A stretch of DNA of 42,989 bases, from IMG/VR virus record IMGVR_UViG_3300042520_002405, positions 1 through 42,989 of that record. The stretch is one strand, 5' to 3'. This document shows, one piece after another, positions 1-42,546 of the stretch. This stretch comes from a virus. A program made the position numbers and the translations under genes. The notes below the pieces were generated by a model that was given only the letters and a program-made list of their open reading frames with translations, ran no database searches and was not told where the DNA came from. Position 1 is the first letter of the stretch; every line of letters begins with the position of its first letter.

Positions 1-1
1 G

Positions 2-853: not shown

Positions 854-870
854 CTAGAAGGACTTAGGAA

Positions 871-3119: not shown

Positions 3120-3120
3120 C

Positions 3121-6032: not shown

Positions 6033-6053
6033 TATGTTTCCTTATTACAAAAG

Positions 6054-7138: not shown

Positions 7139-7141
7139 TTT

Positions 7142-7360
7142 TTATAGTAAACCAAAAGTTAAGTTATGAGGTAGATAGCCTTTACAGGTTGGACAAAAAC
7201 ACAAAGGTCTCTGATGTTGTTCTGATAAGGACTTATCTAGCCAAAGTTGACCAGTCATCCAATCAGAAGGTACTACTCCATCATTCTTTTCAGTAATTAC
7301 TTCATAATTGCAAATTTCACAATTAATTTTAGTTGTATTTTCAATAATTTTAATTGGCAT
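7142..7360 (-). CDS. Small zinc-finger-like protein
   Basis: This 72-residue protein has two Cys pairs, CEIC near the N-terminus and CPTC near the C-terminus (with an extra Cys before it, LCFC), spaced as in a zinc ribbon. Between them is a Trp-containing segment. It lies between tip fibre and minor virion genes. It may be a metal-stabilised structural or regulatory protein; function unknown. Confidence 0.65.
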   Translation of the reverse strand: MPIKIIENTTKINCEICNYEVITEKNDGVVPSDWMTGQLWLDKSLSEQHQRPLCFCPTCKGYLPHNLTFGLL

Positions 7361-7371
7361 AATATATCCTC

Positions 7372-9114: not shown

Positions 9115-9132
9115 GATATTGTCCTTTCGCTA

Positions 9133-10209
9133 TTATGGCTTAGTAGCTACAACGTTTAATGTAATAGAACCGTTATCAGGCACATAGCTAGCATCAATAG
9201 TTACAGTCCTACACACTGTAGGATCTACTTCTGTAACCCCTGCTGGTGGAGTAGTAGTTGGACCAGCAATAGCAGTTGCTCCGTTAAACCATTGAAAAGT
9301 CCAACCAGTGTAATCAGATACTTCTGCACTTCCTTGAAATAAGTCTACAGTAACTGTAACTGAGCCACTATTGTTTTTAAGTTGAAGAGAGCCAGAAGTT
9401 ACTCTAGGAACTACAATGTAACTAGCTTCACCTCTATCAATACGAACAACTGACATACGGTCTACTACGCCGCCTTTAGCTACTCTGTAAGTAATGTAGC
9501 TAGCATTCCCAAAAGCTGCTCTTGTCACTGTGTGTGTACTAGTAGTTGCTCCTGCAACTGTAGGGGTTAACGCTGATTCAGCTCCACCGTTAGTGGACTG
9601 GAACCAGCTAATATTACCTGAAGCTGGTCCGTCATACGCGGCAGTAAGTGTAATATCTCCGTTAATAGTGTTATCTGCAATAGGAGCAGAAGAGGTGTAA
9701 TCATTAAACAAGAAGTTTTGTCTAGTACCGTTAATAGTTAAACTAGAAGCAGAACCACCTACTGCTTTAGAAAAAGTTACTTCTACGTTAATAGTTACGT
9801 TTTGATTTAGTCTTCTGACAATAACAGGGACAGAGACTCTAACAGACTGAACAGTAGTAGTATCATTCATTGCTGAGATAGTCATTCTAGCAATATTTAT
9901 AGCACCAGCTCCATCGATTTCAGTTACGCTAGCACTAGTAAAAACAGGAGTAACCCCTGCTGCAGGAGTAACTGTAGGAGTACCTACAGTGTAAGTGTTG
10001 TTAGCAGTAGGAGTAATAGTTACGTAAGCTGCTTGGTCTGCTCCTACAAGAACTAGTATATCGTTTGTAAAGTTATTTCTGTCTGTAGCAGAAACTACCC
10101 CTGCAGAAGTAGCAGGAAAAGTATGGTTTTCGTTTGATTGAATAATAGAGATTGTGGGTAAACCATCAGTAATATCTGTAATAGTTACCACACCACGTGC
10201 TGTAGGCAT
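9133..10209 (-). CDS. Tail-tip associated beta-rich protein, paralogous N-terminus to the adjacent fibre
   Basis: This 358-residue protein begins MPTARGVVTITDITDGLPT, closely matching the fibre at 7372-9114, so both probably dock to the same tip site. The rest is Thr/Val/Ser-rich with several Ig-like or BIG-like repeats (for example PTVAGATTSTHTVTRAAFG and GWTFQWFNG). Such domains are common in tail proteins that touch the cell surface. It is encoded right after the J-like protein. The Ig-like assignment is from pattern only. Confidence 0.75.
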   Translation of the reverse strand: MPTARGVVTITDITDGLPTISIIQSNENHTFPATSAGVVSATDRNNFTNDILVLVGADQAAYVTITPTANNTYTVGTPTVTPAAGVTPVFTSASVTEIDGAGAINIARMTISAMNDTTTVQSVRVSVPVIVRRLNQNVTINVEVTFSKAVGGSASSLTINGTRQNFLFNDYTSSAPIADNTINGDITLTAAYDGPASGNISWFQSTNGGAESALTPTVAGATTSTHTVTRAAFGNASYITYRVAKGGVVDRMSVVRIDRGEASYIVVPRVTSGSLQLKNNSGSVTVTVDLFQGSAEVSDYTGWTFQWFNGATAIAGPTTTPPAGVTEVDPTVCRTVTIDASYVPDNGSITLNVVATKP

Positions 10210-10224
10210 TTTGTTTTCCTTCTT

Positions 10225-13215: not shown

Positions 13216-13821
13216 TTAAAGTGCCTCTATTAATTTAATAGTTCCAGGATTTACAAGTACACCGTCTTCGTAAGTAATACCCTGCAATGTCTCTAAATCT
13301 CTGTAGTATTGTAAAACAGGTTTTGTAGCAGAACCTGGATGGTGAACTACAGTTGAAATAGATACATCTTGTCTTAATTCAGGGTAAATACTTACAGAGA
13401 CAGGGGTTGTTTGAGTAGTTACATTTGCAGTAACCATGTATATCTTAGCGTGATCAGCAAACTTGATAAAAGAGCCTTTAGGTAAAAGTCTCGATGCTTG
13501 GGAAAAGTTAATAAGAACCGTACTAGCTCCCCTTGTAGCAGCGTTAGATGAGCCATTAGTAGTTACAGTTACTTTTTTATCAACTGAAAGCAACTGAGGC
13601 ATAATCATAGTTTTAGCCGTATTAATACCTGTTACCATACTAACAAAATAGTCTTCTTCAATATCTCTTGTTTGAATTTGAAAACTTAGTTCCCAACGCT
13701 GGGCACCTTGCGATGCCCTTTGTTGTCTTAAGTTGACTGTATCTGCAACAAATACAGGTTCGTTAGATTCAATAGTAAGAGGAGCCACAATTGGGCTCCC
13801 CTCAAAATAATAAACTGTCAT
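13216..13821 (-). CDS. Distal tail (Dit-like) / minor tail protein
   Basis: This 201-residue protein starts on the stop codon of the tape measure gene (TAATG overlap), the position normally occupied by the distal tail protein or lambda M/L-like proteins. Beta-rich sequence and QRASQGAQRWELSFQIQ near residue 33 recall the N-terminal barrel of Dit-type proteins, where an R-WE-f pattern is common. It would link the tail tube to the tip hub. The exact family is uncertain. Confidence 0.72.
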   Translation of the reverse strand: MTVYYFEGSPIVAPLTIESNEPVFVADTVNLRQQRASQGAQRWELSFQIQTRDIEEDYFVSMVTGINTAKTMIMPQLLSVDKKVTVTTNGSSNAATRGASTVLINFSQASRLLPKGSFIKFADHAKIYMVTANVTTQTTPVSVSIYPELRQDVSISTVVHHPGSATKPVLQYYRDLETLQGITYEDGVLVNPGTIKLIEAL

Positions 13822-16800
13822 TATCGTGATCCTCTCTCGCGATTAGTCATATTGACCCCAGCAGTGATCTCCGGAATCATACGGGCAATCTCTTTACGAG
13901 TTTGCATGGAGACATCACCTGAAACATTAATGTTGAACACTTGTTGTTTGTCCTTATTGTTATTATTTTCTTGTACAGTTTTGAAGGCACTAGGATTACT
14001 AGGACCAACTAGACCCCCACTAGCAAAAGCTGGTAAACGGCCATCGTTAGCATTTAGCGTTTCAAGGAAAGGCAACCAACGTTTAGTTGTAGCAGCATTT
14101 ACTACGTACTCACCGTTAGAGAGCATAGCCATGATAGAGTCAGAAGTAGCTGTTCCAGCACCTGAGACAAAGCCACCTTCAGCAAAACCGCCAAGGAAAC
14201 TACCACCACCGAACAAACTGAATAGCCCACCAAGGCCACCACTACCAAACAAGCTAGAGAAAATGTTTCCAATACCACCAAACAAGTTTCCAAAGAAACC
14301 TTGGATACCTGAGAAGAGATTACTAAAGAACCCGCCTCCTGCTTGAGCACCAGCACCAGCACTACCAGAACCTGCGCCCATTAGTCCACCTGCTGCTGCA
14401 GAAACATCTTGAACATACATAGGGTTTTGAGCACTGCTGCCTAGTTCACCAAACAGACTACCTAAGCCGCCAGCGGTTGCAGTACCTGCTGAAGAACCCA
14501 GATTGAGAGCACCTGTAAAGAGTGAATTAAACAGCTGGTCTAAACCTAACCCTGAGAATAGAGAGTCAGTGAAACCCTTACTAAACTTTTCAATAATAGT
14601 ATTAGTAAAAGTATCTAATAGACCATCTAAGAACCCTTTAAAGGTTTGTTCGCCTTTAAGGAAGTTAACCATACCTGATTCAAAAGCTTCAGACATAACT
14701 TTAGCACCGGACTGTAGCTCTTCTAGCTTCATCTTCAGATGATCCATAGCGGCTGTAGTAGCTTGTAGCTCTACTGATCCCGCTGCCATAGTCTGAGACT
14801 GAATCCTTAGTAACTCAATTTGTTTTGCAACGCCTTGAGCATACTGCAGTAAAGCAGGCGTTAAGCTGCCAATAAAGCTAGTATCAAGGCCTGCGCCTAG
14901 CGCATCGAACTGAGCGCTAACACCAGCGAAGGTACCGTCATCAAGAGCATCAATAGCTTCTAGACGAGCTAGCCGCATTTGTTCTAGCGAAGCCTTGCGT
15001 AGTTCTACCTCATGTGCTGCAGACTTATTGATAGCGTCTTGTGCTGCTTTAAAACGATCACCAGCAGCAATCATTTCATTAAGGCCATTAGTTGACAGCC
15101 CAGCTAGTAAGTCTTCACTTAATGACAAGCCAAGAGCATCTGTCTTTTCTTTGAAAGATTCCCACCAGGTTTTCTTATCACCACCAGAGTCTGGTGCATC
15201 TGGTACTTCAAAGTCTAGCTCTTTCATAACTCCATCAATTTTGGCTGCAACAGCAGAAACATCACCTAAAATATCAGAGCCAGTAATAGCTCCAAAGATC
15301 TTAATAGCTAACATTTGCAATCTAAGAAGTCTAAGCTTCATAGTTAAGTCACTAATTTTCTTTAGTTTATCTCCAGGAAGTTGTAGTAGCTTATTAAAAT
15401 CAATAGGATTATCTACAATAGAATGAGCATACTCTAGTCTATCAATCATTGTTGTAAACTCATTTTCAGCAGTATACATTGAAGCAACTAGATCATCAAT
15501 AGAGTCTTGCATACCTAAACTTGTTGGGTTAGAGAGATCTGTTTGTAGATTTTGAACAGCTTCTTCAATAGCTTTTAAGCTGTCTTTTGCTTGAGCTTCT
15601 TGTGTAGGACCAATAATAGTTAACGGCAATAAAGCTTCATTACCTACTCCAATAGAAGAGAAAATGTTGTTAATTTTAGAGCCTAAATCTCTACCACTAC
15701 CAAACCAGTCAATAGTTTTAGTTTCAACTGCAGCTGCCTGAAATAAAGCATAAATTTGATCAACAATAGATTGTTTTCTGTCTCTAATTCCATCTTTTAT
15801 AGAAAGAGGTAAAGAAGCATAAGCTTCAGTAGCCATATTCTCATTTATTTGTAACAGCTCTTTTCCAAGAATTGCAATTTGAGTTTGAGTACCTAAACTA
15901 GAAGAAAATATATCTTCCAATGTCATAGAAGTGTCTACAGAGCTTAAAACACTTTCAATTGTGCTTTTGTATTCTAGTAACTCAAATTTTAATTGCTGTT
16001 TTGCATTGTCTAAGTTTTGTTTAGATTCGCTAGTGAACCCTGAAGCTACGTATGCAGCCTCTGCTTCTAAGACTTTTGAAGCTCCTGTTATAAAGGCACC
16101 AATTCTACTTGTATCAAAATTACTGAGGTTTACATCTACTCCAAGTAAGTTTAGAGATTCATTAATTTGATCTACTAATACTCCAGACTCAGAAAGATAA
16201 ATATTTTTAAGAATTTCGAATTCTTTTTCAGCTTTTGATTTTTGAGCTGCTAATTGTTTTGTGTTAAAAAGAGCTGCAGTGCTTTCATCAAAAAGAGGTA
16301 CAGCCGCTCCTTTAAAGTCTACAGTTCTTGAAGCTAAATCGTTTAACTTCTTTTGAAGTAGTAAAGCACCTTCAATAGATAGTCTTTGAGCTTCATCTGT
16401 ATCTAATTGATCAAAGCCTAATTCTCTTTGAAGATTTTGAACAGTAGCAATAGCTTCTTCTTTAGACAATCTATTAGAAGCTAACATTACAGCAGTATCT
16501 AGGTCTTTAACTAGTTGTTTGGCAGCTGATTCTTGCTGTGCTTGAGCTTCTCTTAAAACAGAATTATTTTGCACTCCAATAGTAGCAAGCATGTTAGCCA
16601 TTGTGCCTGTCGTATTTTGGCCAATACGATCAGCTAGCATTTCATTAACATTACGGATAAGCTTAGGGTCTACAGACAATCCTTGTGATAAAGCAAAGTT
16701 AAGTTTGTCAGCTAACTCTGCGGCAATAGGATCAATACCTCTAAGTTCTTCAATATTAATAAAAGCAGAGAGAGGCGCTGTACCTTTTGTAACAGCTTCA

Positions 16801-19800
16801 GTTGCACCTGTAATATCCGAAGTAGAGCTTGTAAACAAGCCTCCTCCTACTTGTGGTAAAGTAGCCACGCCTAGTTTGTCAGCAGCAGAAAGTAAACCTT
16901 CTACACTTTTAGAAATAGACTCACCAGAGCCTATTTCAGGAGCTTCTTTTATCTTATCACGGATACCTCTAAGTAGCTCGTTAGCTTCTCTTCTTTCTCC
17001 TCTTGTTAATTGACCTTCTTCCTCGTAAATGGATTTAAGCTCTTCAAGTCTATTAACAGACTGTTTTAAGCTAGCTCTCATGTCACCTACTTGGCTAGTA
17101 TTCAATCCTGTCAGGTCTACAGAATCTAATGTTTTAAACACACCAGAAAAATCAATATCACCAATAGTACTGCCTTTGAGAGGGTCTAGAATGCTTTCAA
17201 TCGATTTTCTAGCTTCTCTTCCACCTTCTGTAGTATTCGTAAAAAAGTCTGTAACACTATTTTTAAAGTTAGTCCACTTTTCAGATAGAGAGTCTCCTTT
17301 ACCAAAAAGCATCAAACCTAGTAAACCAACGCCAAGAATTACAGCACCTATTTTGCTAAAGATTACAGCAAAAATAGTGCCTACAAAACGTAATAGCATA
17401 ATACCTACTGTTACTAGTCCTGCTTTAAAACCTGCACCTAGTGCAGTTGCTACAGCAGCTTCAATAGCTAAACCAGCAATTAAGGCTCTAAATTGTAGTT
17501 TAACAAAGTTAACAGAAGAAATTACTAGTTTTCTAAAAGATCTAGGGCCCATAGCTCCAAAAAGCATTACCCCTAGCATTCCATACTCTAAAGCTGAAAA
17601 ACCTAAACCAAAACCAGAGCTAGCAGCATCCTCGCTAGCCATAGCAACTGTGGTAAATAACCCCAGAACTACTGCAGCTAACAAAGCAGCTCTACCTATT
17701 TTACCGAAAAGAACACTGCCAATAGTACCTAATGGACCGCCAATAGCTAAGGATCTGTTACGTAAACGACCCATAGACATAGTATACCAAGTAGTAAAAG
17801 AATAAACAGCATTAGCTAATTTTGTACCAAGAACAGTAGCTAAAGATCCGCCACCAATTGCACTATAATATTGGAATCTAAACCAAGCAAACCATGCTGC
17901 AATTCTTGCTTTTAAGCTTAAAGCTCCAGAAGCTGGCCACAAATAACCAGTAAGATTTAGCATTTTACCATTAACTGACATTAGCCCAGACATTAAACCA
18001 ATATAGTTTATAATAGCATCAAAAGTCTTAACTATTCCTTTAAACGTTCCACCTGCACCAAAAAGAAGTACAGAAACTAAACCCCCTACAGAAATAAAAG
18101 TGCTTACAGTGTTACCAATATCATTAAAAATACCAGGTATTAGGTTGAGTACTGCTATGACACCTAGCACAGCTGCAATAACAGTTCTACCTTTTCCTAG
18201 TAATAGAAATTGAAGTATGCCACTAGAACCAACACCACCTATACTCTTGCTTAGTAAAAGTGTTAAACCAGCATTGATTACTGTAGTAATCATTTTAAAC
18301 TTACCGAGAAGAGCTGCAATGCCTGCGCCAAATAAGGCTATTTCAATAATACTACCTATTCCTGGTGTTGCGCTTATAAGCAGACTTATAGATTTACCTA
18401 CAATACCTAATTGATCTAGTAAACCATGTGCAAAGCCTTTAGCTACATCTAGCAACCCTTGAAGTAATAATGGTAAATTGTCAAAAATAGCTTTGATAAT
18501 AGTACCTACAAGTTTACCTGCACTTTGACCGATATTTTCAAAGAAACCTTCATCGATTAAAAGTTCTCCAGAATTCTGTAGGACTTTATTTAAAACATTT
18601 GCTACTAAAGTGCCTAGCAATAATGTTTTTAAAGCTGCAAATAATTTAACCCCAAATAATTCGGCTAATCCAGTAACAATACCTGCTGCTAGTAAATTAG
18701 CAAGAACAGGTGCACTGTTGTTTAGCTCACCCCAAACAGAAAGAATTCCGCTAAGAAGTTTAGAAGCTAAATAAATTTCGGCTTTCTGAACAAAAATGAT
18801 CAGAGAATTTAAAGCTTGCGCTAAGTTGAGCTGAATATCTAAGGAGAAATCAAAACGAGTATTTGTAAGCTCTTTGAATTTATCTGATATTTTAGATTTG
18901 ATATCATCTAGCGCAGATAAGTCTATTTGTTCAAATAGGTTTGATAAGTAATCTTTTAAAAAGTCTAAATTAAGATTTTTAAAATCAAAATCAAGATCAA
19001 GAAGATTTGCTAAAGGGGAGTTAGAAAATAAACTTCTTAAAAATTTCAAAGTCTTAGAAAACTCTGTTTTAATTTTAGCACTAAAAGTGTTAATTATAGG
19101 GAGAGCAGTATCAAGAAGATAATTAGTCCACTTAACTATCCCTTCAATAGTATCTGGCCAAACAGAACCACCTACTAAGTAAATATAAAGATCATAGAAA
19201 GTTTTTCTAATTTTGCTTGAAAATTTAGTTATAATTTTTGTAACTTTAGTTAGACCTGAAGTTGCAAAAGCAGTTATATCATCAAAAGTATTCTTAGCAG
19301 CTTCTAACATTCTACCTAAATAAGCTTCAAAGATAAGAGCGCCAGAAAATAGGCTAACAATTACATTCATTGCTAGAAAGTTTTTAGTAAATTCTACTAG
19401 TAGTTTAGAAGAAAATTCAAGCAAGAAGCCAAAGTCTTCAAAGGTATCAAATCTAAATTCAATTAATTTTTGATCAAGTATGCCTAAATATCTTCCTGTT
19501 TCAACAAGAAAAACATTAGTTTGACGAACAATAGTAGTTGCAAAGTTAAATACGTTAAACCATCTTTTACCATAGTTGTCAATTGCAGAAGCTAAATCAT
19601 CTAAGTTTTGTCTAAGTTCTACTACGCTAGTAGACTGGAATACTTTAGTAAAGGCGCTAGATACACCTCCACCTAAGCTAGCAATCTCTAAAAAGGAAGC
19701 TCTAACAGCTAAAAGAGACCTAGTTACTGCAGCAAAAAATTCTACAGTTGGAATCTTAAATAATGCTAAAGAAAGCTGATCAAAAAGAGTAAGTACTGGA

Positions 19801-20888
19801 ACAATAACTTTAGGAAAAGAACTCCCAATTCTTCCTACGATTGCACCAAGTACGTTAAAGATACCCCCTGCAACTAATTGGATATCTTTGAAAGTTTGTA
19901 CGACATTAAGATCTTTTACACGTTCAGCTACTCTTAAATCAAGATCAACACTTGCTTCATTAAGTGTTCTAGAAAGATTTAAGGTACCTGCTGCAATACT
20001 TTTACTTAGTCCTAAACCCTTATCTACTTGCCCTATGTAGTTAGTTACCGCGTCTAAAAATACTACTGAAGACTTAGTAATAGAAGGAGCAATATTTTTA
20101 AATTCTTTATTAATTGCTGCGCCTTGATTAAGTAAAGCTTTCATTACTACATCAGCAGATAGCCCGCCTTCTTCAGCAATAGCTCTTAATTGTCCAATAC
20201 TAACTCCAAGTTCATCTGCAATTGCTGTAGCAATTCTAGGTGCTTGTTCAAGGACAGAATTAAGTTCTTGACCTCTCAATGCACCAGCACTAAGACCTTG
20301 GCCTAACTGGAAAATAGCAGCAGAAGCAGATTGAGCTGAACCACCAGAAATAGCAATAGCTTTTTGAACATTCTCAGTTACTTCAATAAGTGTTTCTGTT
20401 TCAACTCCAGCATCTCTTAATGCTAAGCCAAAACGATTAAAAGTTTCTACTGATCCTTCTACAGAGGTAAAGGTTTTTGCAGAAACACTAATTAACTTTT
20501 CTTGAGTTAGGATTAGGTTATCTGTTCTACCAGTAACTAACGCAATTCTATTTTCTAGCTCACTAAACTTAGAAGTAACACCTACAAACCCAGCAGTTAA
20601 TGCACCACCAGTTAAAGCTAAGGTTAGATTTCTTGCTAAATTAGAAAAGCCATTACTTAGCCCGTTAACAGAGCTAGCTAGTTCTTTATTTGTTTTTGAT
20701 AAGTCTTGTCTTAAAGACTTTAATTCTTGTGAAATTTGTTTGCTGTCGATGCTTTTGACACCAACGTTTGAAATGTTTTTAGATACTGCTCTAGACTCAA
20801 CTTCAAGAGTCTTAAGTCTAGTTGAGATTTTTTTAAGAGCAGATTCAATACTACTTTCATTAGCTACAATGTCAACTTCAATTGCCAT
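13821..20888 (-). CDS. Tape measure protein
   Basis: At 2355 residues this is the longest gene in the window. Residues 1-80 are coiled coil (LKKISTRLKTLEVESR). Residues 80-260 match the conserved tape-measure N-terminal domain (ALTGGALTAGFVGV, ALRGQELNSVLEQAPRIA, IAEEGGLSADVVMKALL). About 730-1200 is hydrophobic with repeated membrane-like segments. The C-terminus is Gly/Phe-rich and ends with FAEGGFVSG and MLSNGEYVVNAATTKRWLP, a common tape-measure closing motif. By the usual rule of about 0.15 nm per residue, the tail would be near 350 nm. No peptidase or transglycosylase motif was evident. The upstream hairpin may tune its expression. Confidence 0.95.
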   Translation of the reverse strand: MAIEVDIVANESSIESALKKISTRLKTLEVESRAVSKNISNVGVKSIDSKQISQELKSLRQDLSKTNKELASSVNGLSNGFSNLARNLTLALTGGALTAGFVGVTSKFSELENRIALVTGRTDNLILTQEKLISVSAKTFTSVEGSVETFNRFGLALRDAGVETETLIEVTENVQKAIAISGGSAQSASAAIFQLGQGLSAGALRGQELNSVLEQAPRIATAIADELGVSIGQLRAIAEEGGLSADVVMKALLNQGAAINKEFKNIAPSITKSSVVFLDAVTNYIGQVDKGLGLSKSIAAGTLNLSRTLNEASVDLDLRVAERVKDLNVVQTFKDIQLVAGGIFNVLGAIVGRIGSSFPKVIVPVLTLFDQLSLALFKIPTVEFFAAVTRSLLAVRASFLEIASLGGGVSSAFTKVFQSTSVVELRQNLDDLASAIDNYGKRWFNVFNFATTIVRQTNVFLVETGRYLGILDQKLIEFRFDTFEDFGFLLEFSSKLLVEFTKNFLAMNVIVSLFSGALIFEAYLGRMLEAAKNTFDDITAFATSGLTKVTKIITKFSSKIRKTFYDLYIYLVGGSVWPDTIEGIVKWTNYLLDTALPIINTFSAKIKTEFSKTLKFLRSLFSNSPLANLLDLDFDFKNLNLDFLKDYLSNLFEQIDLSALDDIKSKISDKFKELTNTRFDFSLDIQLNLAQALNSLIIFVQKAEIYLASKLLSGILSVWGELNNSAPVLANLLAAGIVTGLAELFGVKLFAALKTLLLGTLVANVLNKVLQNSGELLIDEGFFENIGQSAGKLVGTIIKAIFDNLPLLLQGLLDVAKGFAHGLLDQLGIVGKSISLLISATPGIGSIIEIALFGAGIAALLGKFKMITTVINAGLTLLLSKSIGGVGSSGILQFLLLGKGRTVIAAVLGVIAVLNLIPGIFNDIGNTVSTFISVGGLVSVLLFGAGGTFKGIVKTFDAIINYIGLMSGLMSVNGKMLNLTGYLWPASGALSLKARIAAWFAWFRFQYYSAIGGGSLATVLGTKLANAVYSFTTWYTMSMGRLRNRSLAIGGPLGTIGSVLFGKIGRAALLAAVVLGLFTTVAMASEDAASSGFGLGFSALEYGMLGVMLFGAMGPRSFRKLVISSVNFVKLQFRALIAGLAIEAAVATALGAGFKAGLVTVGIMLLRFVGTIFAVIFSKIGAVILGVGLLGLMLFGKGDSLSEKWTNFKNSVTDFFTNTTEGGREARKSIESILDPLKGSTIGDIDFSGVFKTLDSVDLTGLNTSQVGDMRASLKQSVNRLEELKSIYEEEGQLTRGERREANELLRGIRDKIKEAPEIGSGESISKSVEGLLSAADKLGVATLPQVGGGLFTSSTSDITGATEAVTKGTAPLSAFINIEELRGIDPIAAELADKLNFALSQGLSVDPKLIRNVNEMLADRIGQNTTGTMANMLATIGVQNNSVLREAQAQQESAAKQLVKDLDTAVMLASNRLSKEEAIATVQNLQRELGFDQLDTDEAQRLSIEGALLLQKKLNDLASRTVDFKGAAVPLFDESTAALFNTKQLAAQKSKAEKEFEILKNIYLSESGVLVDQINESLNLLGVDVNLSNFDTSRIGAFITGASKVLEAEAAYVASGFTSESKQNLDNAKQQLKFELLEYKSTIESVLSSVDTSMTLEDIFSSSLGTQTQIAILGKELLQINENMATEAYASLPLSIKDGIRDRKQSIVDQIYALFQAAAVETKTIDWFGSGRDLGSKINNIFSSIGVGNEALLPLTIIGPTQEAQAKDSLKAIEEAVQNLQTDLSNPTSLGMQDSIDDLVASMYTAENEFTTMIDRLEYAHSIVDNPIDFNKLLQLPGDKLKKISDLTMKLRLLRLQMLAIKIFGAITGSDILGDVSAVAAKIDGVMKELDFEVPDAPDSGGDKKTWWESFKEKTDALGLSLSEDLLAGLSTNGLNEMIAAGDRFKAAQDAINKSAAHEVELRKASLEQMRLARLEAIDALDDGTFAGVSAQFDALGAGLDTSFIGSLTPALLQYAQGVAKQIELLRIQSQTMAAGSVELQATTAAMDHLKMKLEELQSGAKVMSEAFESGMVNFLKGEQTFKGFLDGLLDTFTNTIIEKFSKGFTDSLFSGLGLDQLFNSLFTGALNLGSSAGTATAGGLGSLFGELGSSAQNPMYVQDVSAAAGGLMGAGSGSAGAGAQAGGGFFSNLFSGIQGFFGNLFGGIGNIFSSLFGSGGLGGLFSLFGGGSFLGGFAEGGFVSGAGTATSDSIMAMLSNGEYVVNAATTKRWLPFLETLNANDGRLPAFASGGLVGPSNPSAFKTVQENNNNKDKQQVFNINVSGDVSMQTRKEIARMIPEITAGVNMTNRERGSR

Positions 20889-24151: not shown

Positions 24152-25243
24152 TTAAGCGTGTAGAATGGGGAGAATACCTAGGTTTAGTGGATCCATAGTA
24201 CGGGTCCATGAGGCAGCAGCCCCTAGGGTTGAGTTGGTAGCGAAATTGTTGGTTGCGCCAACCCAGTCGTAGCCCATAGGATGAGCAACGAAGCCATAGC
24301 GATACCAGATGTTGGTTGAACCACCACCAGCATAGCTAGCAGGATTACGATCAACTTCGGTAGCGACTGGCATTGGGATTTCGCGGAAAGCAACTGAACC
24401 AGGCTTGACAAGGAAGGTTGTCTTGGTTGACTGGTCATTAACGTTAGCTGAAGCAGCAAGGTTGCCCTGAGCAGCACGAGTTAGGACTAGACGGAACTTA
24501 CCACCGAAGATGGTTTGGAAATCTAGGTTACCGTCACGAACACGGTCTTGGTCGATTAGGTTAGCTGCACGAAGGTCAGCAAGAACTTCAGGTGAAGTTA
24601 CCATGTAAACGAAGTCTGGTTCGTAGTCCTTGTAGAACATACCCATAGCGCGGAATAGACGCTCACCACGAGCAGCACCGATTTCTGAAGAGTCAACTAG
24701 CTTACGAGCATCGCCAGCGCCAGTAGCAGCGGCACCGAAAGCACCAGCAGCGTTAACGTCAACGAAAGCACCAACTGAACCTGAAGGAACAGTGTCGAAG
24801 CCGACAATACCAGCACCAAGAGCAACTTCAGAAGCAGCAACGCCCTTCATGATGTTTAGAACAGCGTTATGCTCGTCCTGAGCACGTGACTGAGCAAAGT
24901 TACGAGCGAAGAAAGCTAGGCCGTCCTGCTGTGAGATAATGCGCTGTAGGTTAACCTGTTCAGCACCGATGGTGCGAGCATTCTTAACATAGTTAGCAAT
25001 GTCGGTTGAGATTGAAGAATAAGTACCATCAGTAGCAGTGGTTAGTGAAGCGTTGTTGATGGTAGCTGATAGTGGTTTGTACCAGCGTAGCTGACCAGCG
25101 AAGCCTTCGCCTGATGGGTCTAGCTCGGTTGAAGCAGCAACCATACCAGTTGAGTTAATACGCTTTTCTTCGGTCCAGCGCTCTTCTGCATAAGCAGAGA
25201 TAGCAACTGCTACGTTCTGAAAGTTTAGATGATTAATAGCCAT
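24152..25243 (-). CDS. Major capsid protein
   Basis: This 363-residue protein follows the scaffold gene. It shows the pattern of the phage major capsid family with RWTEEKRINSTGMVAAS, LRWYKPLSATINN, NIMKGV, DFVYMVTSPEVLADLRAANL, FGGKFRLVLTR, STKTTFLVKPGSVAF and GFVAHPMGYDWVG. The late FVAHPMGYDW motif is characteristic of this group of HK97-fold capsid proteins. There is no protease domain nearby and no sign of an N-terminal delta domain; scaffolding comes from the separate upstream gene. Confidence 0.93.
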   Translation of the reverse strand: MAINHLNFQNVAVAISAYAEERWTEEKRINSTGMVAASTELDPSGEGFAGQLRWYKPLSATINNASLTTATDGTYSSISTDIANYVKNARTIGAEQVNLQRIISQQDGLAFFARNFAQSRAQDEHNAVLNIMKGVAASEVALGAGIVGFDTVPSGSVGAFVDVNAAGAFGAAATGAGDARKLVDSSEIGAARGERLFRAMGMFYKDYEPDFVYMVTSPEVLADLRAANLIDQDRVRDGNLDFQTIFGGKFRLVLTRAAQGNLAASANVNDQSTKTTFLVKPGSVAFREIPMPVATEVDRNPASYAGGGSTNIWYRYGFVAHPMGYDWVGATNNFATNSTLGAAASWTRTMDPLNLGILPILHA

Positions 25244-25274: not shown

Positions 25275-25955
25275 TTAGAAAGTCACTGTTCCGAGTTTAC
25301 CTGATTCAGCAAGAGCAAGTAGCTCTTCAGTAGTCATGCCAGAGAGAGTCTTTGGACGTGACATTGAAGCAGAGTTCTTGTTCGAGTTTGAGCCAGCACC
25401 TGAGTTTTCTTTAGGTTTAAAGAGAAAATCCTTATTAGGATCTTTAGAAAAAGCCTTGAGATAGTCATTAATACTAGCGCCAGACTTGTGAACCCATGAG
25501 CCGTCCTCGTCTTGGACAAGTTCAGGGAGAATAGTTTTGAAAGCAGTTTCACGTGCGAAGTCGTTACGGAACTCGAGAGAGCCTAAGTGCTTCTCTAGCT
25601 CACGATCTCGAGTAACAGAAGTAAGTTTATCCTGCAGAATTTTCTTTTCTTCTTCTAGTTCAGCAAGTTTAAGTTTTGCAACTTCATAATGCTTGCCTTC
25701 GTCTTCGAGTTGTTTACGTTGCTTATCTTGAGCTTCTGCTTTGAGACGAGCATTTTCACGTGCTAGCTCTTCAGCTTTTTTATAGGCTTTGTCAACATTG
25801 CCCTTCATTTGTTTAAGCTCGTCAGCCACCAATTGTTTTAGTAGAGCTTGATGCTCATCAGCAAGAGAGGCTTTCCGTTGGGAAAGGTCTTGTTGATTGG
25901 TGTCATTATCGTCTTCATTATCATTGACAGTATTATCGTCGTTTTGATCAGCCAT
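25275..25955 (-). CDS. Capsid scaffolding protein
   Basis: This 226-residue protein has an acidic, Asp/Asn-rich start (MADQNDDNTVNDNEDDND), a long coiled coil at about residues 30-115 (rich in K, E, A, L) and a C-terminal domain ending in MSRPKTLSGMTTEELLALAE, a helix that may bind the capsid protein. It is immediately upstream of the major capsid gene, the usual scaffold position. No protease motif is seen. Confidence 0.87.
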   Translation of the reverse strand: MADQNDDNTVNDNEDDNDTNQQDLSQRKASLADEHQALLKQLVADELKQMKGNVDKAYKKAEELARENARLKAEAQDKQRKQLEDEGKHYEVAKLKLAELEEEKKILQDKLTSVTRDRELEKHLGSLEFRNDFARETAFKTILPELVQDEDGSWVHKSGASINDYLKAFSKDPNKDFLFKPKENSGAGSNSNKNSASMSRPKTLSGMTTEELLALAESGKLGTVTF

Positions 25956-26373: not shown

Positions 26374-26476
26374 AAGTCACCTCAAGAAAAAGAAAGGAAA
26401 GTGAGGGAGGAGCAGAAGCATAAGCTCCCGCCCCCATAAGGTTTTCAACCCCCTCTTCTTTATAGCTAAGAGGTGA

Positions 26477-26722: not shown

Positions 26723-29700
26723 TTATGGCCCCCAACCGTAGTAGTCATACCCGGTTTTTAAAGGAGCTGTAATTTCTTCTGGTTTAAATTTAGGATCAAA
26801 GTAGCCAAGGTCTTCAGCTTCTTTTAAGTATTTAAAATACAACTCGTCAGGTAACCCTTCTTCACGAAGAGCATCAAGAGTCTTTTTAACTTTTGGATAT
26901 TGAGCAAAACGCTTGTAGATATCTCGAACTTCTGCTAAGAGAGGATCGATTTCATTGATATTTAAAGCAGCAGCGTCATGAATAGTTGAAGTTGGAATAC
27001 CAGTACGACGACCCCAAAGATGTAGCTGTCTAACAACACTAGCATCGTCTGCGTGAGTACCGTTAACACCTAGACCCAGTCGAACATCGCCTACTTGCCC
27101 TTTACCTAATAGCTTACCATCTTCAGCATTCATTTGATAAATGTTGCGAATGTAACGTTTAGATTGAGGATCGTAGAAACGAATTTCTTGTTGGATCTTT
27201 GGTCGATAGTCTTGGTATAGTAGTTTACCATCAAAAGTAACCCAAGGAATACGAACCTTTTTAGTTGATCGTGCGTAATCTTGGCCAACTCTTTTCCAAA
27301 AGTCAATGTAGTTATCAGTAACAGGTGCACGTTCTGAGAGTTTTTCAGACATAATAGCAGCAATTCTTTTGAAGTGGTCAGGACCTACTTGAGGACCTCT
27401 CCTATTTGAGTACTTGTAAATAAAGTCAGAAAGATCTGGGTGAAAATCTGCTGCTTCAGCAAGTAACGCATCGCTAACAGCTTTATCAGGATTGTTAGCA
27501 ATTTCAAGGACTTCTTTCTTTAATGCTAAGAGGTCAGCTTGAGTGTCTGTTGCACCTAAAGACTTAGCTTCTTTAATTTTGACGTCAATTTGTTTAGTCA
27601 AAGCTAAATATTCTGCTCTGGTAGTAACAAGCACATCTTGCTTACGAAGTACTTTTGACAACTCAAGAGCAACTCGAGCTGCTTGTCCTGCTTTACCTGC
27701 ACCATACAGTGAGATCATAACCTGATACTTTGCAGCTTTATTGATATCTTCCCAAGTCAAGTTAAGATTTAATTCTTGCATCAAATCTTGAAAACGAGGA
27801 TCACTAACAGTATCTTGAGCAACAAGGTCATAGATTCTGTTTTTCTTAATAGACTGCAATACATTAGAGGTAATAGCAGCACCACGATCACCTGTAGCAA
27901 GAGCAATCATTTGTAAGCCTGAAGCAGAAGCGTCAGCTTCACCAAGTAGTTTAGACTTATAAGTTTTTAGCTTTGCAGGAGTAAAATCACCACCTGTATG
28001 CTTATGAATACGATAGTACTCAAGACTAAAGCGAGCAATCTTAGCTACTTCAGCAGCATCTGTAGACTGAATTAAAGGATGTTCAAGAAACTCTCTAATA
28101 CGACGTTCTCTTTGAGTTTTTGCGCTAAGTAACTGCCCTACCTCAAGAATAAACTTTTCATTACGCTTGAAGATAGCTAGTCTGCCAGCATCAGTAAGTG
28201 CTTCAGTACCTGGACCTATAACAGCTGCCATTTGAATCCGTAGCTGGTTTAAACCTTGAGGAGTCATTGAAACAGCATGAGCTGTGTTTAAGAAAGGACG
28301 AACTACTTCACCACCAGTAGGTGTTAAATACCCGTTGTAATATACGCGGCCACGACCGTCAATACGGGCATGTACGGTGAAAGTCTTTCCATTGGCCCGA
28401 TAGTACCTGATAGTTTCCATAAGACCATAGCCTTGGTCTCCTCGCCTGATAATTTCTTCACGAAAGCCGTTAATTGAGTCATAGTAAGCTGCTTTACCTC
28501 TCTGGTCTTTAAATCTAACTAAGTCATCCATAAAGCTAGTAAACTCATCGTCTACTTCATAACGGAAAGACATTGTGTGGTTTAACATATCGGCGAAATC
28601 GCCATCAATTTGTTTTTCATCAAACTTAGAAAAAGCTGAACGAGTTACAACAGGAACACCAGTATCACGGCCACGAGCATCTACATAAGTCTTTTTACCG
28701 GGAACGACAAAATACTTGTTTTCAGGACGATCTACACCTAGGCGATTAGACAGTTCAATACGACGATTATAGTCTTGTAGTTTAAGCATTACTGGATCAA
28801 TAACTTGAACTTCTCTTGAAACAGTATCTTTCCAGTTTCCTGAAGCACGACCTGTGTCTAAGTCTGTAGTAGCTCTGCGAGTAACACCACGAGAGTTTAC
28901 TCTGATAAGCCCTTGTTGACGCATTAGTTCTAGAATCTTAGACCCTTGCTCATGGTAGTCTTCAAGAGAAGAACCAAAGATAGGGTAAATAGGATTCCAA
29001 GTAGACTTTAACTCCTTACCTAGGCTAATAGCTAGTGAGTCATAGTCTGTTGTAGTGCCTTCAGCAACTACTGCCATCAGCCTTGACATAGAACGAGTAA
29101 CTTCACCTTCGATAGGCTCAGCTAACTTTTGAACAAACAAACGCTCTAGCGTTAAAGAACGCCTTAGTTTATAAAAGAATTCCAGGTCTACAATAGAACG
29201 ATATTCTTCACGAATAGTTCTTGTAATGAAGTCGGCAAAGCCTTCTTCCTTGATCTCAAGAAACATAGTTAACCAATCAGGAGTAACTTTCTTTTTCAAG
29301 TACTTTTTAACAATTTTAGAGAATTTGTCTGGAGTTTTACCGAAACGAGTATAAAAACCAATAGGATCGTCTTTGTAAAAAGTAGCACGAATAGAACGTT
29401 TAATAAAACTGTCTTTTAGTGTTTCAAACAAACCTTCTGGTTTCTCATTAGGCCCAAAGAAATAAGAAGTCCAAGGTGCTTTACCACGGTAGTAAACACT
29501 GCGAGCTAGCTTGATACCCTCAGTTGAAGCCCAGTCTTTCACATAGCGTTCATATTCTAACTTTTCAGCATGTAGTTTTGAAATAGCTAGTGTTTGACCT
29601 TGAATCATTACTGCAGGTTCGTTAGGATCTCCCTTAAAACCAAGGAACAATTCTGAACGTGCTCTTGAACGACGATCAAGTAACCTTGAAACGTTTATTG

Positions 29701-31246
29701 TAGAGAAATTCATTTCTGCTCGAACGGTAGCTACAAAATTTTCCCAAGGTTCTGGGTTCTTTTGATAGCGTTCAAATAGAACACGAAGGTTTTCTACTAC
29801 TACTGTTTGCTGATTTACAGACACTCGATCTTCAAGGCTGTTAGTAAAGTCTTCGATGAACTGCTTCTGATTACGATCTAGCAACTTTGATTCATTCATG
29901 TAGTCGATACGTTCGCGTAGCAATGTGAAATCAGGATCATAGTAAAGGGTAGAGCGTACTTCTCCTGTGAAAGGATCAAAGGTTTGATTGCGAGGATCAA
30001 ACTCGTTGTTAGCTTGTGAGCGAACACCACGCTTACCACCTAGGCTAGTACCGCGGAAGTCTGTTAGGCTAATTGCTGAGTTACCATTCATAGTGTCTGC
30101 AACAATAAGGTCTGCAAGATCCTTCTGTACTTGTGCTGAACGAACAACTTGGAAAGGCCTAGCTACATTAAGAAATACAGCTTGTGGATCTTTATCACGA
30201 ATAGAAACAGGGCTAAAGAAAGTTAGTAGGTTATCCTTCATCCTAACAGCACTAATGTCAAGAGGACGACCTAGGTTGCTAAAGAAGTCTGTTAGACCAA
30301 GAGCACCTCTTTCAAAGAGAGCTACTCGTTCTTCTGAGCCTAGCTTGTCTACCTTTGTTGCCATAGGTTGACGGATCAACCAGTCACTAAAAGTTTCTTT
30401 AATAGGTAGTGCACCTGAAAGACTGTTATCAGCTACAGCAGCTAGTCGTTCTTTGTTAACTCTATCATTAGTTGAGCGAGAAATTTCTTTCTTAGATTTG
30501 AGAACAGGAACCAGAACAGAACGACAACGCCAGTGCAATGGAGGACGAACTTTTAAGTTGTCTGCTGACTGGAACAAGTTGTCATAGCGAGAACAGATTT
30601 CACTAGTACGAGAGTCGAGAATAGCTGTAAAGACATAGCCAGAATAAACATCTTTGTTTGCTTCAAGAACTTTTTGCTTGACGATGTTGTCTGCTTGAGT
30701 CATGTGAGTAGTAACAAGAGTCTTGGCTTGGTTGTCAGTTAACTTTGTAGTCTGTAGTACCTTCTTAATAATTTCGTCTTCAACTTCACCTGCAGCGATA
30801 CCTCTACGAATTGTAAGATTAATACGTGTTAGTTCTGCACCACCTACATTTTCAAAACTCTTTACCATAGTAGGATGAGACTTAGTCTCGTTAAATAGCT
30901 TGAGAGGCTGGCTAGTGATTTCCCTAGCTAGCTGTCCACGATTAACTGAGTTAACACTGTAAAAGTCACCAACAGAGCGTCTAAGATTGTTAGTCTGAAA
31001 GTCTAGCTCTGCTCCAATAAAGTCTGAAACAGCATTAGAACCTAGTGCGTGAAGCTCTTGGACATACCTTGTAACCTCACGCTCTAGTGCTAACCTATCT
31101 TTTAAGTCTTTTCCAAGAATTTTCTTTAGAAAGCTACGGTGACGGTTAGAAGCTTTATCAATAAGTAAGTTTGCAGCATCTTGATAACGTCTAATTGTGA
31201 GCAAGTGCTCAATTTGTCTATCGAATAATTCTTGGGTTAGACTCAT
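26723..31246 (-). CDS. MuF head domain fused to single-subunit RNA polymerase (candidate virion RNA polymerase)
   Basis: A 1507-residue protein. Residues ~90-250 form a Mu gpF/SPP1 gp7-like domain ending in DSRTSEICSRYDNLF (211-225) and RPPLHWRCRSVLVP (234-247), the motif of portal-associated minor head proteins. Residues ~250-870 are unassigned. The C-terminal third has the four single-subunit RNA polymerase motifs in T7 order: DGRGRVY at 963-969 (T7 DWRGRVY), motif A EADASASGLQ with Asp1105 (T7 Asp537), motif B with Lys1173 and Tyr1181-Gly1182 (the same 8-residue gap as T7 Lys631/Tyr639), and motif C IHDAAALN with His1423-Asp1424 (T7 HD812). Both catalytic Asp are intact. T7 Arg627 aligns with Asn1169. 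It is inferred to be packaged at the portal and injected to transcribe phage DNA. Typical MuF proteins are 300-500 residues. Confidence 0.9.
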   Translation of the reverse strand: MSLTQELFDRQIEHLLTIRRYQDAANLLIDKASNRHRSFLKKILGKDLKDRLALEREVTRYVQELHALGSNAVSDFIGAELDFQTNNLRRSVGDFYSVNSVNRGQLAREITSQPLKLFNETKSHPTMVKSFENVGGAELTRINLTIRRGIAAGEVEDEIIKKVLQTTKLTDNQAKTLVTTHMTQADNIVKQKVLEANKDVYSGYVFTAILDSRTSEICSRYDNLFQSADNLKVRPPLHWRCRSVLVPVLKSKKEISRSTNDRVNKERLAAVADNSLSGALPIKETFSDWLIRQPMATKVDKLGSEERVALFERGALGLTDFFSNLGRPLDISAVRMKDNLLTFFSPVSIRDKDPQAVFLNVARPFQVVRSAQVQKDLADLIVADTMNGNSAISLTDFRGTSLGGKRGVRSQANNEFDPRNQTFDPFTGEVRSTLYYDPDFTLLRERIDYMNESKLLDRNQKQFIEDFTNSLEDRVSVNQQTVVVENLRVLFERYQKNPEPWENFVATVRAEMNFSTINVSRLLDRRSRARSELFLGFKGDPNEPAVMIQGQTLAISKLHAEKLEYERYVKDWASTEGIKLARSVYYRGKAPWTSYFFGPNEKPEGLFETLKDSFIKRSIRATFYKDDPIGFYTRFGKTPDKFSKIVKKYLKKKVTPDWLTMFLEIKEEGFADFITRTIREEYRSIVDLEFFYKLRRSLTLERLFVQKLAEPIEGEVTRSMSRLMAVVAEGTTTDYDSLAISLGKELKSTWNPIYPIFGSSLEDYHEQGSKILELMRQQGLIRVNSRGVTRRATTDLDTGRASGNWKDTVSREVQVIDPVMLKLQDYNRRIELSNRLGVDRPENKYFVVPGKKTYVDARGRDTGVPVVTRSAFSKFDEKQIDGDFADMLNHTMSFRYEVDDEFTSFMDDLVRFKDQRGKAAYYDSINGFREEIIRRGDQGYGLMETIRYYRANGKTFTVHARIDGRGRVYYNGYLTPTGGEVVRPFLNTAHAVSMTPQGLNQLRIQMAAVIGPGTEALTDAGRLAIFKRNEKFILEVGQLLSAKTQRERRIREFLEHPLIQSTDAAEVAKIARFSLEYYRIHKHTGGDFTPAKLKTYKSKLLGEADASASGLQMIALATGDRGAAITSNVLQSIKKNRIYDLVAQDTVSDPRFQDLMQELNLNLTWEDINKAAKYQVMISLYGAGKAGQAARVALELSKVLRKQDVLVTTRAEYLALTKQIDVKIKEAKSLGATDTQADLLALKKEVLEIANNPDKAVSDALLAEAADFHPDLSDFIYKYSNRRGPQVGPDHFKRIAAIMSEKLSERAPVTDNYIDFWKRVGQDYARSTKKVRIPWVTFDGKLLYQDYRPKIQQEIRFYDPQSKRYIRNIYQMNAEDGKLLGKGQVGDVRLGLGVNGTHADDASVVRQLHLWGRRTGIPTSTIHDAAALNINEIDPLLAEVRDIYKRFAQYPKVKKTLDALREEGLPDELYFKYLKEAEDLGYFDPKFKPEEITAPLKTGYDYYGWGP

Positions 31247-38878: not shown

Positions 38879-39072
38879 TACGCAGACTCCCCAGGAAGAA
38901 CAATGCAACCAGTCTTGCTGTAGTAAACTTCAGGACTGTCAAGAAAAGTAGAAGCTTCATCAAGATCTGCTTCACAAGCTTCTTGAGTTACAAAGACCTC
39001 TTCAGTATTGTAAAAGATTTCGCAAGATTGTACTTCAGCTGAAGTGCACACTAGTAGCATTGCTAAAAACAT
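38878..39072 (-). CDS. Small Cys-containing exported or secreted-type protein
   Basis: This 64-residue protein begins with a short hydrophobic segment ([16 protein letters not shown]) that looks like a signal peptide cut after Ala or Ser. The mature part is acidic with three Cys (CEIFYN, EACEAD, TGCIVL). It overlaps the portal stop by one base and the basic 48-residue gene by one base. Similar tiny Cys proteins occur in phage structural operons; a role in envelope interaction is possible but unproven. Confidence 0.65.
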
Positions 39073-40637
39073 TATACACTATCCTCTATGTCTATGCCAG
39101 AGTTGTCTTGAATTAGTGGATCTTGACCGATTTCTTCCATACCTGCTACATCATCATAGTCATTAGGAATAATATCATGTTGTTTAGCTACAGAAAGCCA
39201 TACAGAACGAGGAATCAAACGATTCTGATACCATTCAGTTACTAGACGAGTCCATTCAGAACCAAGAGGTGTTGGGTTAAAGTCTGCTGATAGTTTGAAT
39301 TCTAGCTCTTCTACATCAAGATCTTTACCATAACGCCAACGAAGCATTAGCTTGATAACTTCACCCATAGTAGCAGATAGCTTATTATTAAGTAGACCTA
39401 GCTGTGCTGTTAGGCTTGAGTTACGGATTTCTAGCGCAATACCAGACTGATCGCCTTCAGGCGCAAGGATACGAACACCCATGCGAGCCATTTCAGAAAG
39501 AGAAGCTTCAATAGCCTTTTCCATGTCTGCTAAAGCATCTGTTGGAGTACGGAAAGCATCAATTTTGTCATTAGATCCTAGCTTAATCCAAGAGCCTAAA
39601 CCAGCATTAACTACGCTAGCAAAATCTTCATTACTCATGTCAGAGAAAACAACAGGAGTAAAAGTAGAAGCACCGTACATCAAATGGTTGCGACGAGAGA
39701 CTTTATTGTAGAGCGCAATTTCTTTGTCAATAAGAGGAGTCAGCATAGGAGCTTCAAGAGTAACTTCACCATTCAATGGGAAGATAGGAAGCTGTTTCAT
39801 AGGCTCGCCCCACATCATAGGAGTTAGAGGCTCGCCATCTGCGATCCAGTGATCATTCGAGAACAATTCAGTACCAAAGAGCTGAGTCATCTTTAGATCA
39901 CCGTTAATCAGGTCTACTGTTGCTTCACCCTCTTTTTTGTAGTACTGTACCCTGTAGACACCTGCCTCATCAAGATAGTGGTCTGCAGCAACGATGTCAA
40001 GGTTAGGATGCCACTCAGAGTCTCTATAAGTTCTACCAATGTAGCGGAATACAATACGAGTAAGAGTTGGACGACCTGTAACTTTGTCAATACCAGTTTG
40101 CCAGTTAATAACATCTTCTGCTCTCCAAAGTACTGGATAAGGAGCAATCATTTGTTTTTGTTCAGGGTCTAGATCGGTATAGTTAGGGACCATAGGAAAG
40201 TCTACAGAAACCCAACCGCGGCTAGTTGAAAGTTCCTCCCAAATAGCTGCATCAAGGAAAGCAACCATTGGACGACCGTCCTCAGTAAAGCGATTACGTA
40301 GCCAGTTAAGAGCTTCTTCGGGTACTGTTTCAGGTAGTGTCATTTCAGGAACTTTACGTAGCAAACCACCTGTGAGAATCTTTGCATACTGAGAGGTTAA
40401 CCCAGGTAGTTCTGCTTCAGCTACGTACCAGCGATACTGTTCTGCTGACATACGAGGGCTAAAAGGTACTAATAAGTTAGTATAGTTTACTTGATCGAGA
40501 TAACGGTCATGCTCTTTAGCATAAAGCTCTCCGTTTAGAATAGCGCGGCAACGTTTCCAGATACGAACCATAGATTCATATTCGTAAGTTGGAGTGCCAA
40601 CACTAGACTTCGAAGTAAGAGTTGGTATCTGGGTCAT
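39072..40637 (-). CDS. Portal protein (DUF4055-type)
   Basis: This 521-residue protein matches DUF4055-type portals: YEYESMVRIWKRCRAIL near the start, KILTGGLLRKVPE, WRAEDVINWQTG (the common IINWR-like strand), ADHYLDEAGVYRVQYY, PIFPLNGEV, and a late helix EASLSEMARMGVRIL followed by SGIALEIRNSSLTAQLG, ending with NPTPLGSEWTRLVTEW. It forms the dodecameric DNA gate at one capsid vertex. The MuF-RNA polymerase lies about 8 kb downstream in the same operon, with the fibre module between. Confidence 0.92.
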   Translation of the reverse strand: MTQIPTLTSKSSVGTPTYEYESMVRIWKRCRAILNGELYAKEHDRYLDQVNYTNLLVPFSPRMSAEQYRWYVAEAELPGLTSQYAKILTGGLLRKVPEMTLPETVPEEALNWLRNRFTEDGRPMVAFLDAAIWEELSTSRGWVSVDFPMVPNYTDLDPEQKQMIAPYPVLWRAEDVINWQTGIDKVTGRPTLTRIVFRYIGRTYRDSEWHPNLDIVAADHYLDEAGVYRVQYYKKEGEATVDLINGDLKMTQLFGTELFSNDHWIADGEPLTPMMWGEPMKQLPIFPLNGEVTLEAPMLTPLIDKEIALYNKVSRRNHLMYGASTFTPVVFSDMSNEDFASVVNAGLGSWIKLGSNDKIDAFRTPTDALADMEKAIEASLSEMARMGVRILAPEGDQSGIALEIRNSSLTAQLGLLNNKLSATMGEVIKLMLRWRYGKDLDVEELEFKLSADFNPTPLGSEWTRLVTEWYQNRLIPRSVWLSVAKQHDIIPNDYDDVAGMEEIGQDPLIQDNSGIDIEDSV

Positions 40638-41724: not shown

Positions 41725-41749
41725 TTTATTCCTTTTGGTGTGCTAAAAA

Positions 41750-41812
41750 AGTGAGGAAAACTACGTATCTATAATGAGATAATCTCAAGACGAGAAATCT
41801 CTTAACCCCCAA
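41750..41812. promoter_or_regulatory. Divergent control region with facing -10-like boxes and a palindrome
   Basis: This lies between the leftward PhoH gene and the rightward small genes. On the plus strand TATAAT sits at 41770-41775; on the minus strand TATAGA reads from 41773 to 41768, with TTCTCG 17 bases further upstream. Next to them is the palindrome TGAGATAATCTCA (41775-41787), which could be an operator or a hairpin, and GAGAAATCTC (41792-41801). The plus box has no good -35, so a standard sigma-70 promoter is uncertain. Confidence 0.4.
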
Positions 41813-41826
41813 TAATGGAGAGTCAA

Positions 41827-42093
41827 ATGAAAGTCCGTAATGCCGCCCTGTCTGTTGCTCAGTTTGGCGCTGGGTTTGTTGCTGGTACTGTGTCAGTTCC
41901 TTTTGTTTACATTGGTGTTGCAGCCACTGTAGCTAAAGGTGTAGCTGAAGTAGTGCAGACCGTTTCCTTCAAGGCTGTTGGTGAAATTACCGATCAACTG
42001 GTGATTATCGACCGTAAACTGGAAGCGCTAAAAACTAAGGAAGCAGATATTGTGGAATCTCCGATTGGAGACGAAGCAGTAGCTGTTAACTAA
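41827..42093 (+). CDS. Small membrane-associated hypothetical protein
   Basis: This 88-residue protein uses the ATG at 41827, which has GGAG six bases upstream; an ATG at 41815 overlaps that site and is rejected. Residues ~8-37 form an Ala/Gly/Val-rich hydrophobic stretch (SVAQFGAGFVAGTVSVPFVY and more), likely membrane-inserted, followed by a helical charged tail. It is the first gene of a rightward series with standard leaders. Function unknown; perhaps an early host-takeover protein. Confidence 0.7.
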   Translation: MKVRNAALSVAQFGAGFVAGTVSVPFVYIGVAATVAKGVAEVVQTVSFKAVGEITDQLVIIDRKLEALKTKEADIVESPIGDEAVAVN

Positions 42094-42098
42094 CAGAA

Positions 42099-42125
42099 GA
42101 CCTGAGCAGGTCATTAAAAGGCTCA
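42099..42125 (+). repeat. 27-base hairpin repeat, copy 1
   Basis: Six bases after the stop of the 88-residue gene. It contains the palindrome GACCTGAGCAGGTC (42099-42112), then TTAAAAGGCTCA. TGAGC (42103-42107) can also pair with GCTCA (42121-42125), giving an alternative stem. It differs from copy 2 at one base. Confidence 0.85.
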
Positions 42126-42519: not shown

Positions 42520-42546
42520 GACCTGAGCAGGTCGTTAAAAGGCTCA
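42520..42546 (+). repeat. 27-base hairpin repeat, copy 2
   Basis: Seven bases after the stop of the 63-residue gene. It is identical to copy 1 (42099-42125) except A to G after the palindrome. GACCTGAGCAGGTC lies at 42520-42533 and GGCTCA at 42541-42546. It leads directly into ACCCC and the ribosome-binding site of the next gene. Confidence 0.85.

Follow-up and report, generated by a model that had tools for sequence, protein, structure and literature searches.

A phage MuF head protein fused to a T7-type RNA polymerase, a candidate virion RNA polymerase of long-tailed phages

The fusion gene and its neighbours

The window analysed here, a virus fragment of 42,989 bases from IMG/VR, carries on its minus strand an open reading frame of 1507 amino acids (P0001; 26723-31246) with an ATG start codon preceded by AGGAG. 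The original prediction, which gave no strand for this interval, held that a single reading frame joins a MuF domain to an RNA polymerase (RNAP), and this proved correct, as both Pfam and PHROG models for the two parts match in the same frame. The N-terminal MuF domain (amino acids 1-335; 30242-31246), a head morphogenesis domain like those of SPP1 gp7 and Mu F, is matched by PF04233 (Phage_Mu_F; amino acids 142-245, 42 bits, 1.8e-10, against a Pfam cut-off of 29.6 bits) and by the head morphogenesis family PHROG_241 (amino acids 3-329, 1.9e-49). The single-subunit RNA polymerase region (amino acids 760-1507; 26726-28969) is recognised by PF00940 (RNA_pol; amino acids 1092-1455, 41.9 bits, 8e-11, above the Pfam cut-off), by the RNA polymerase family PHROG_414 (3.4e-20, with the best stretch at amino acids 957-1196) and by the AF2 model and Foldseek comparisons described below. 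Between the two lies a middle region (amino acids 336-759; 28970-30241) that is conserved in the family and for which no named family was found, neither Pfam nor PHROG giving a match between amino acid 336 and the polymerase.

Several genes for virion assembly lie on the same strand. The portal protein gene (39072-40637; PHROG_145, 3.3e-45) is followed by tail-fibre genes, the fusion, the scaffold protein gene (25275-25955; PHROG_206, 1.9e-11) and the major capsid protein gene (24152-25243; PHROG_247, 1.2e-25), with the tail-fibre genes separating the portal gene from the fusion in the window itself. Among the relatives, 74 of the 87 loci with room for a portal gene have one upstream in the same orientation, and scaffold or capsid genes lie downstream of the fusion in 113 of 114 loci. 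Because a separate gene for a tape measure protein of 2355 amino acids (13821-20888), which matches annotated tape measure proteins of relatives, is located beyond the capsid side, the phage is taken to be long-tailed. Tape measure lengths are unlike in close relatives. The corresponding gene of G002, a near relative with 88-98% DNA identity to the window in the main shared blocks, encodes 1637 amino acids (5396-10309), and the difference suggests that the two phages have tails of different lengths.

At one end of the window (1-4756, plus strand) is an operon that encodes a glutamine amidotransferase, a phiEco32-like COOH-NH2 ligase, an amidoligase_2 protein and a weak ATP-grasp-like protein. 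The operon is almost identical in G002, and its gene content looks like that of a peptide- or wall-modifying cassette.

The polymerase region and its family

The active-site residues named in the original prediction are all at the positions given for them, and they are conserved among 261-274 relatives with a sole exception at Lys1173. The DxxGR motif, read like the other motifs from the minus strand, is DGRGR (amino acids 963-967; 28346-28360; DWRGR in T7), with Asp963, Arg965 and Arg967 invariant in 263 of 263 relatives and position 966 occupied by Gly or Ala in most of them. Motif A (amino acids 1105-1112, DASASGLQ; 27911-27934) provides the catalytic Asp1105 (T7 Asp537), which is present in 273 of 273 relatives. 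Motif B (amino acids 1173-1184; 27695-27730) contains Lys1173 (T7 Lys631; 273 of 274) and Tyr1181-Gly1182 (T7 Tyr639-Gly640; 273 of 273 for each residue), and motif C consists of His1423-Asp1424 (26975-26980; T7 His811-Asp812; 261 of 261 for each). In the full-length set, every one of these residues is kept in 58 of 58 sequences.

HMM comparison and structure prediction against T7 RNAP, both of which had been proposed with the original prediction, point to a right-hand polymerase fold. A first AF2 model of amino acids 341-1507 was mediocre (pLDDT 69) and was replaced by a model of amino acids 715-1507 from a deeper alignment, built on 31 sequences from the window and viral contigs, which had a pLDDT of 85.2 and a pTM of 0.80. 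Foldseek matched this model to T7 RNAP in the PDB (1.7e-19) and also to yeast Rpo41 and human POLRMT, and the best 50 PDB matches listed were all single-subunit RNAPs, with TM scores of up to 0.60. The top match in a library of viral structures was a protein of 1463 amino acids (TM 0.95) whose length and identity agree with those of the DSS3 homologue, followed by free T7-like RNAPs and then by N4-like virion RNAPs, the latter with E values of 3e-14 and weaker. The enzyme had originally been described as 'T7/N4-type'. Kinship at the sequence level holds for T7 RNAP (hhalign 8e-11 over 453 columns) and for N4 RNAPII (1.5e-7), whereas the N4 virion RNAP (vRNAP), with an hhalign E value of 0.49, resembles the fusion at the level of fold only. 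A phmmer search of the PDB with the single fusion sequence gave no significant match, and T7 RNAP was reached only by profile and fold searches. Values of dN/dS are 0.06-0.09 in the polymerase region versus 0.07-0.15 in the MuF region, from which purifying selection on the polymerase is strong and tighter than that on MuF. As judged from sequence and structural model, the C-terminus of the fusion is an intact T7-type single-subunit RNA polymerase that is predicted to be active.

When viral contigs were scanned with the motif A-B and motif C regions, 518-520 stretches coding for relatives of these regions came up. In each of the 168 complete, uninterrupted RNAP reading frames among the examined loci, a MuF part, the middle region and the polymerase occur together, and the C-terminal part belongs to one family across the relatives and is not swapped. 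Reading frames with a closed 5' end that encode RNAP but lack MuF represent the 3' portions of genes that have been interrupted, and a MuF part lies upstream wherever the contig extends that far; the exception is L016, a short 3.5-kb contig with a broken reading frame. The idea of a separate form of the RNAP without MuF was therefore rejected. In the phage collection, the only deposited full-length relatives are those of DSS3_PM1/VP1 (43% identity) and, in split form, EBPR siphovirus 1 (about 30%). No prophage relatives were found in the 84,980 bacterial and archaeal genomes searched, as would be expected if the phage is lytic and carries a polymerase of its own into the cell.

Of the ten interrupted loci tested, nine contain recognisable group I introns, in most cases at motif B, close to it or close to motif C. 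Intron-interrupted MuF-RNAP genes are found in L003 (15179-16039, with an HNH gene), L170, L171 (which carries two group I introns), L181, L186, L237, L241, L251, L287 and L290. In EBPR siphovirus 1, motif B is split by an HNH-encoding element that resembles a group I intron and scores 40.5 bits (E 1.3e-8), below the gathering score of 50. The homologue in L085 (6448-11199) has an insertion of about 130 amino acids at amino acid 265 just past the MuF motif. In DSS3_VP1, the terminase large subunit is annotated as two pieces around a 130-codon reading frame (MN602266.1, 4390-6410), and this split is probably due to another intron or homing insertion.

A second RNA polymerase and two classes of promoter-like elements

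All 19 of the long contigs (65-97 kb) that carry the fusion encode a second T7-like RNAP, which is free of MuF and far more T7-like than the fusion. Members of the window clade with this second enzyme are G002, G005, G006 and G008; the free RNAP of G002 has 726 amino acids, shares 30% identity with T7 RNAP and heads the replication genes. The gene is absent from the 42,989 bases of the window, which is a fragment. In G009, G015, G025, G032, G034, G039 and G041-G044 the gene for the free RNAP appears split, probably by introns or inteins.

Two classes of motif stand out in the intergenic DNA of DSS3_VP1, one of them T7-type and the other associated with the early block. The latter, AAAAAGTGAG-N11-CATCTATAATGA, precedes the early block leading to the free RNAP. 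An early promoter-like element in the window, AAAAAGTGAG-N11-ATCTATAATG (41746-41776, plus strand; the element is also written as AAAAAGTGAG-N11-CATCTATAATG), heads the early genes and is a candidate target of the MuF-RNAP. Directly 3' of it is the inverted repeat TGAGA-TAA-TCTCA (41775-41787, plus strand), and the first small early reading frame past the element is at 41815-42093 on the same strand. The element occurs with equal spacing in the window, DSS3_VP1, G001, G002, G005, G007 and G008 (11 matches in seven genomes), and the reversed pattern gave no match. In the window clade the element ends in a perfect TATAAT, and no TTGACA-like -35 hexamer was found in it. The early region of G002 has no more sigma-70-type sites than shuffled sequences do (30 versus 33.9 +/- 5.4). 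Two small early genes of the window are followed by near-identical repeats, GACCTGAGCAGGTCRTTAAAAGGCTCA, at 42099-42125 and 42520-42546 (plus strand), which are also present in G001 and are not found in G002.

A related element occurs in the distant half of the family. A crude repeat search of three distant genomes showed a clear early element in one only and led to a general pattern. The related element, GCGSAAAWANNGGTATCTTATATGA, is found at 37 sites in 18 of 19 genomes, with none for the reversed control, and all 37 sites share their strand with the gene for the free RNAP. When contigs are taken as circular, the nearest site lies 1.8-7.3 kb upstream of the RNA_pol match of the free RNAP. 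A search of all viral contigs for the DNA of GCGSAAAWANNGGTATCTTATATGA, made without any reference to proteins, gave 103 stretches. These included 23 additional contigs of 40 kb or more, 17 of which encode the fusion and all of which encode either the fusion or the free RNAP; the six that lack the fusion are 40-66 kb in length and may be fragments. With regard to the idea of an N4-like hairpin, inverted repeats after the related early element are five times as frequent as in shuffled sequences, yet they are found at only 22 of 110 sites.

The second class of element is represented in the window by ACCTCTTAGCTATAAAGAAGAG (26453-26474, minus strand), a T7-type promoter-like element that lies between the fusion and the scaffold and capsid genes and is a candidate late promoter of the free RNAP. 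Its 22-bp core is unchanged in close relatives despite diverged flanks, and G002 has several such sites. The T7-type motif of DSS3_VP1, GTTAAAGAGGGGGA, stands in front of late genes as well as replication genes and occurs three times just before the portal gene, which itself precedes the fusion. A promoter-like match within the fusion reading frame (27513, minus strand) was rejected as a promoter and treated as coding sequence, since the variation among relatives is restricted there to apparently silent positions.

A proposed role at entry and its relation to known systems

What role might a polymerase have that is borne by a head protein? The fusion is most likely a MuF-borne virion RNA polymerase that starts the early genes and a second phage RNAP, and we infer its packaging, injection and activity. 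By analogy with the MuF proteins of SPP1 and Mu, the MuF part (amino acids 1-335) would be incorporated at the portal as the head is assembled, which would bring the C-terminal T7-type polymerase into the head and allow it to enter the cell with the DNA. The injected MuF-RNAP may then read the early promoter (41746-41776 in the window and GCGSAAAWANNGGTATCTTATATGA in the distant half), and the early mRNAs would include that of the free T7-like RNAP, which is encoded downstream of such elements. The free RNAP would next read the T7-type middle and late promoters (ACCTCTTAGCTATAAAGAAGAG in the window clade), structural genes included. The order of genes and promoters suggests that new MuF-RNAP would be made late and then packaged.

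A virion RNAP, which the original prediction had put forward as a candidate role, predicts a later second polymerase, a dedicated early promoter class and a late-made fusion. The genomes bear out these expectations in the second RNAP of 19 out of 19 contigs, in the early element near its gene and in the position of the fusion between portal and capsid genes, with packaging again the presumed step. Moreover, the first mRNA of the free RNAP must come from another enzyme, and upstream of its gene is a conserved element of about 25 bp that is not host-like, so a phage polymerase is needed at entry, and by this logic the fusion is the obvious candidate. A point against the proposal is that the whole 170-kDa fusion protein would have to pass through the long tail.

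Since the early element of the window clade contains TATAAT, the main alternative is that host RNAP reads the early genes at this element and that the packaged MuF-RNAP has another early task. One such task could be pulling in the DNA by transcription, as T7 is known to do with its own DNA. The perfect TATAAT at the end of the window-clade element is in keeping with this alternative, but the element of the distant half has neither TATAAT nor TTGACA and differs from host promoters in being a contiguous stretch of about 25 bp built around a common 13-mer. These phages are furthermore tracked by the element throughout the viral collection, and we consider a reading by host RNAP unlikely. It is less likely still that the fusion does not travel in the virion as a polymerase and instead, being made late, transcribes late genes in the same infection, with MuF as a leftover anchor or cleaved off. 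Although the fusion gene does sit among late genes, these phages already have a free T7-like RNAP, T7-type promoters precede the late genes, and the MuF fusion is retained in all observable complete copies. It is highly improbable that the C-terminal part has no catalytic activity and serves as a structural or effector extension, for although MuF proteins carry diverse and often variable C-terminal effectors (PMC5512222), here the catalytic residues are invariant or nearly so in 260-274 sequences, dN/dS is lowest in the polymerase, the C-terminus is one family and is not swapped, and introns have repeatedly invaded in and between motifs B and C.

With the fusion read as a virion RNAP, these phages probably constitute an unrecognised, globally common class of long-tailed phages in which MuF delivers a T7-type RNAP with its own early promoter of about 25 bp and so sets off a cascade of two polymerases that does not require host RNAP for the early genes. 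Virion RNAPs are known from few lineages, namely N4-like phages, crAss-like phages, P23-45 and jumbo phages. The virion RNAP of N4 is made late, packaged and injected; it transcribes from early promoters and switches on a second phage RNAP (PMC4496689). The fusion shares with N4 gp50 and the vRNAPs of the Schitoviridae the single-subunit RNAP fold and a gene among late genes. Unlike the fusion, the N4 vRNAP has 3500 amino acids and no MuF domain, belongs to a short-tailed phage and needs hairpin promoters, which have a 3-nt loop. Significant sequence kinship between the two is absent (hhalign E 0.49) and the likeness is one of fold, and by sequence comparison the fusion is outside the N4 vRNAP family. 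Furthermore, the late genes of N4 use host RNAP, whereas the T7-type late promoters found here suggest use of the free RNAP.

The crAss-like phage phi14:2 is among the established cases of virion RNAPs, according to a citation within PMC10770324. P23-45 has a tape-measure-fused virion RNAP, gp96, and a non-virion RNAP, gp64 (PMC10770324). As proposed for the fusion described here, the virion RNAP is attached to a structural component of a phage with a long tail, and the pre-early genes include a second phage RNAP. The RNAPs of P23-45 are, however, of the two-barrel (cellular) type, with the DxDxD-containing polymerase inside the tail tape measure, whereas the fusion has a T7-type fold on a portal-side head protein and its phage has a separate tape measure. 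The RNAP of T7 and other Autographiviridae belongs to the same polymerase family by HMM and fold, and T7-type promoters are shared with the free RNAP, but T7 RNAP is free and unpackaged, and the early genes of T7 are read by host RNAP.

On the carrier side, SPP1 gp7 and the Mu F proteins have a similar N-terminal MuF domain and are encoded beside the portal gene. Enzymes fused to MuF are predicted to be injected as effectors (PMC5512222). The known fusions include toxins, ARTs, RNases, RelA/SpoT and others, and none was found described with an RNA polymerase; consistent with the original prediction, which knew of no characterised case, the literature searched, whose coverage was partial, yielded no description of a MuF-RNAP fusion. 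Virion RNAPs and MuF effector fusions are already known, and judged by the literature searched the T7-type enzyme on a MuF carrier appears to be new. Full-length homologues from DSS3_VP1 and DSS3_PM1 (Naomviridae, Noahvirus) and from EBPR siphovirus 1 carry the names 'minor head protein-like protein' or 'head protein' in the deposited records, with the polymerase part not annotated. The DSS3 Naomviridae phages were reportedly described in Rihtman 2021, and the fusion would explain the deposited 'minor head proteins' of these cultured phages. The polymerase-promoter pairs may also serve as orthogonal transcription parts. The family would add to the virion RNAPs a large group with a T7-type enzyme, a MuF carrier beside the portal and a testable promoter, and the MuF-RNAP would be the third case in which a polymerase has independently been coupled to the machinery of DNA delivery.
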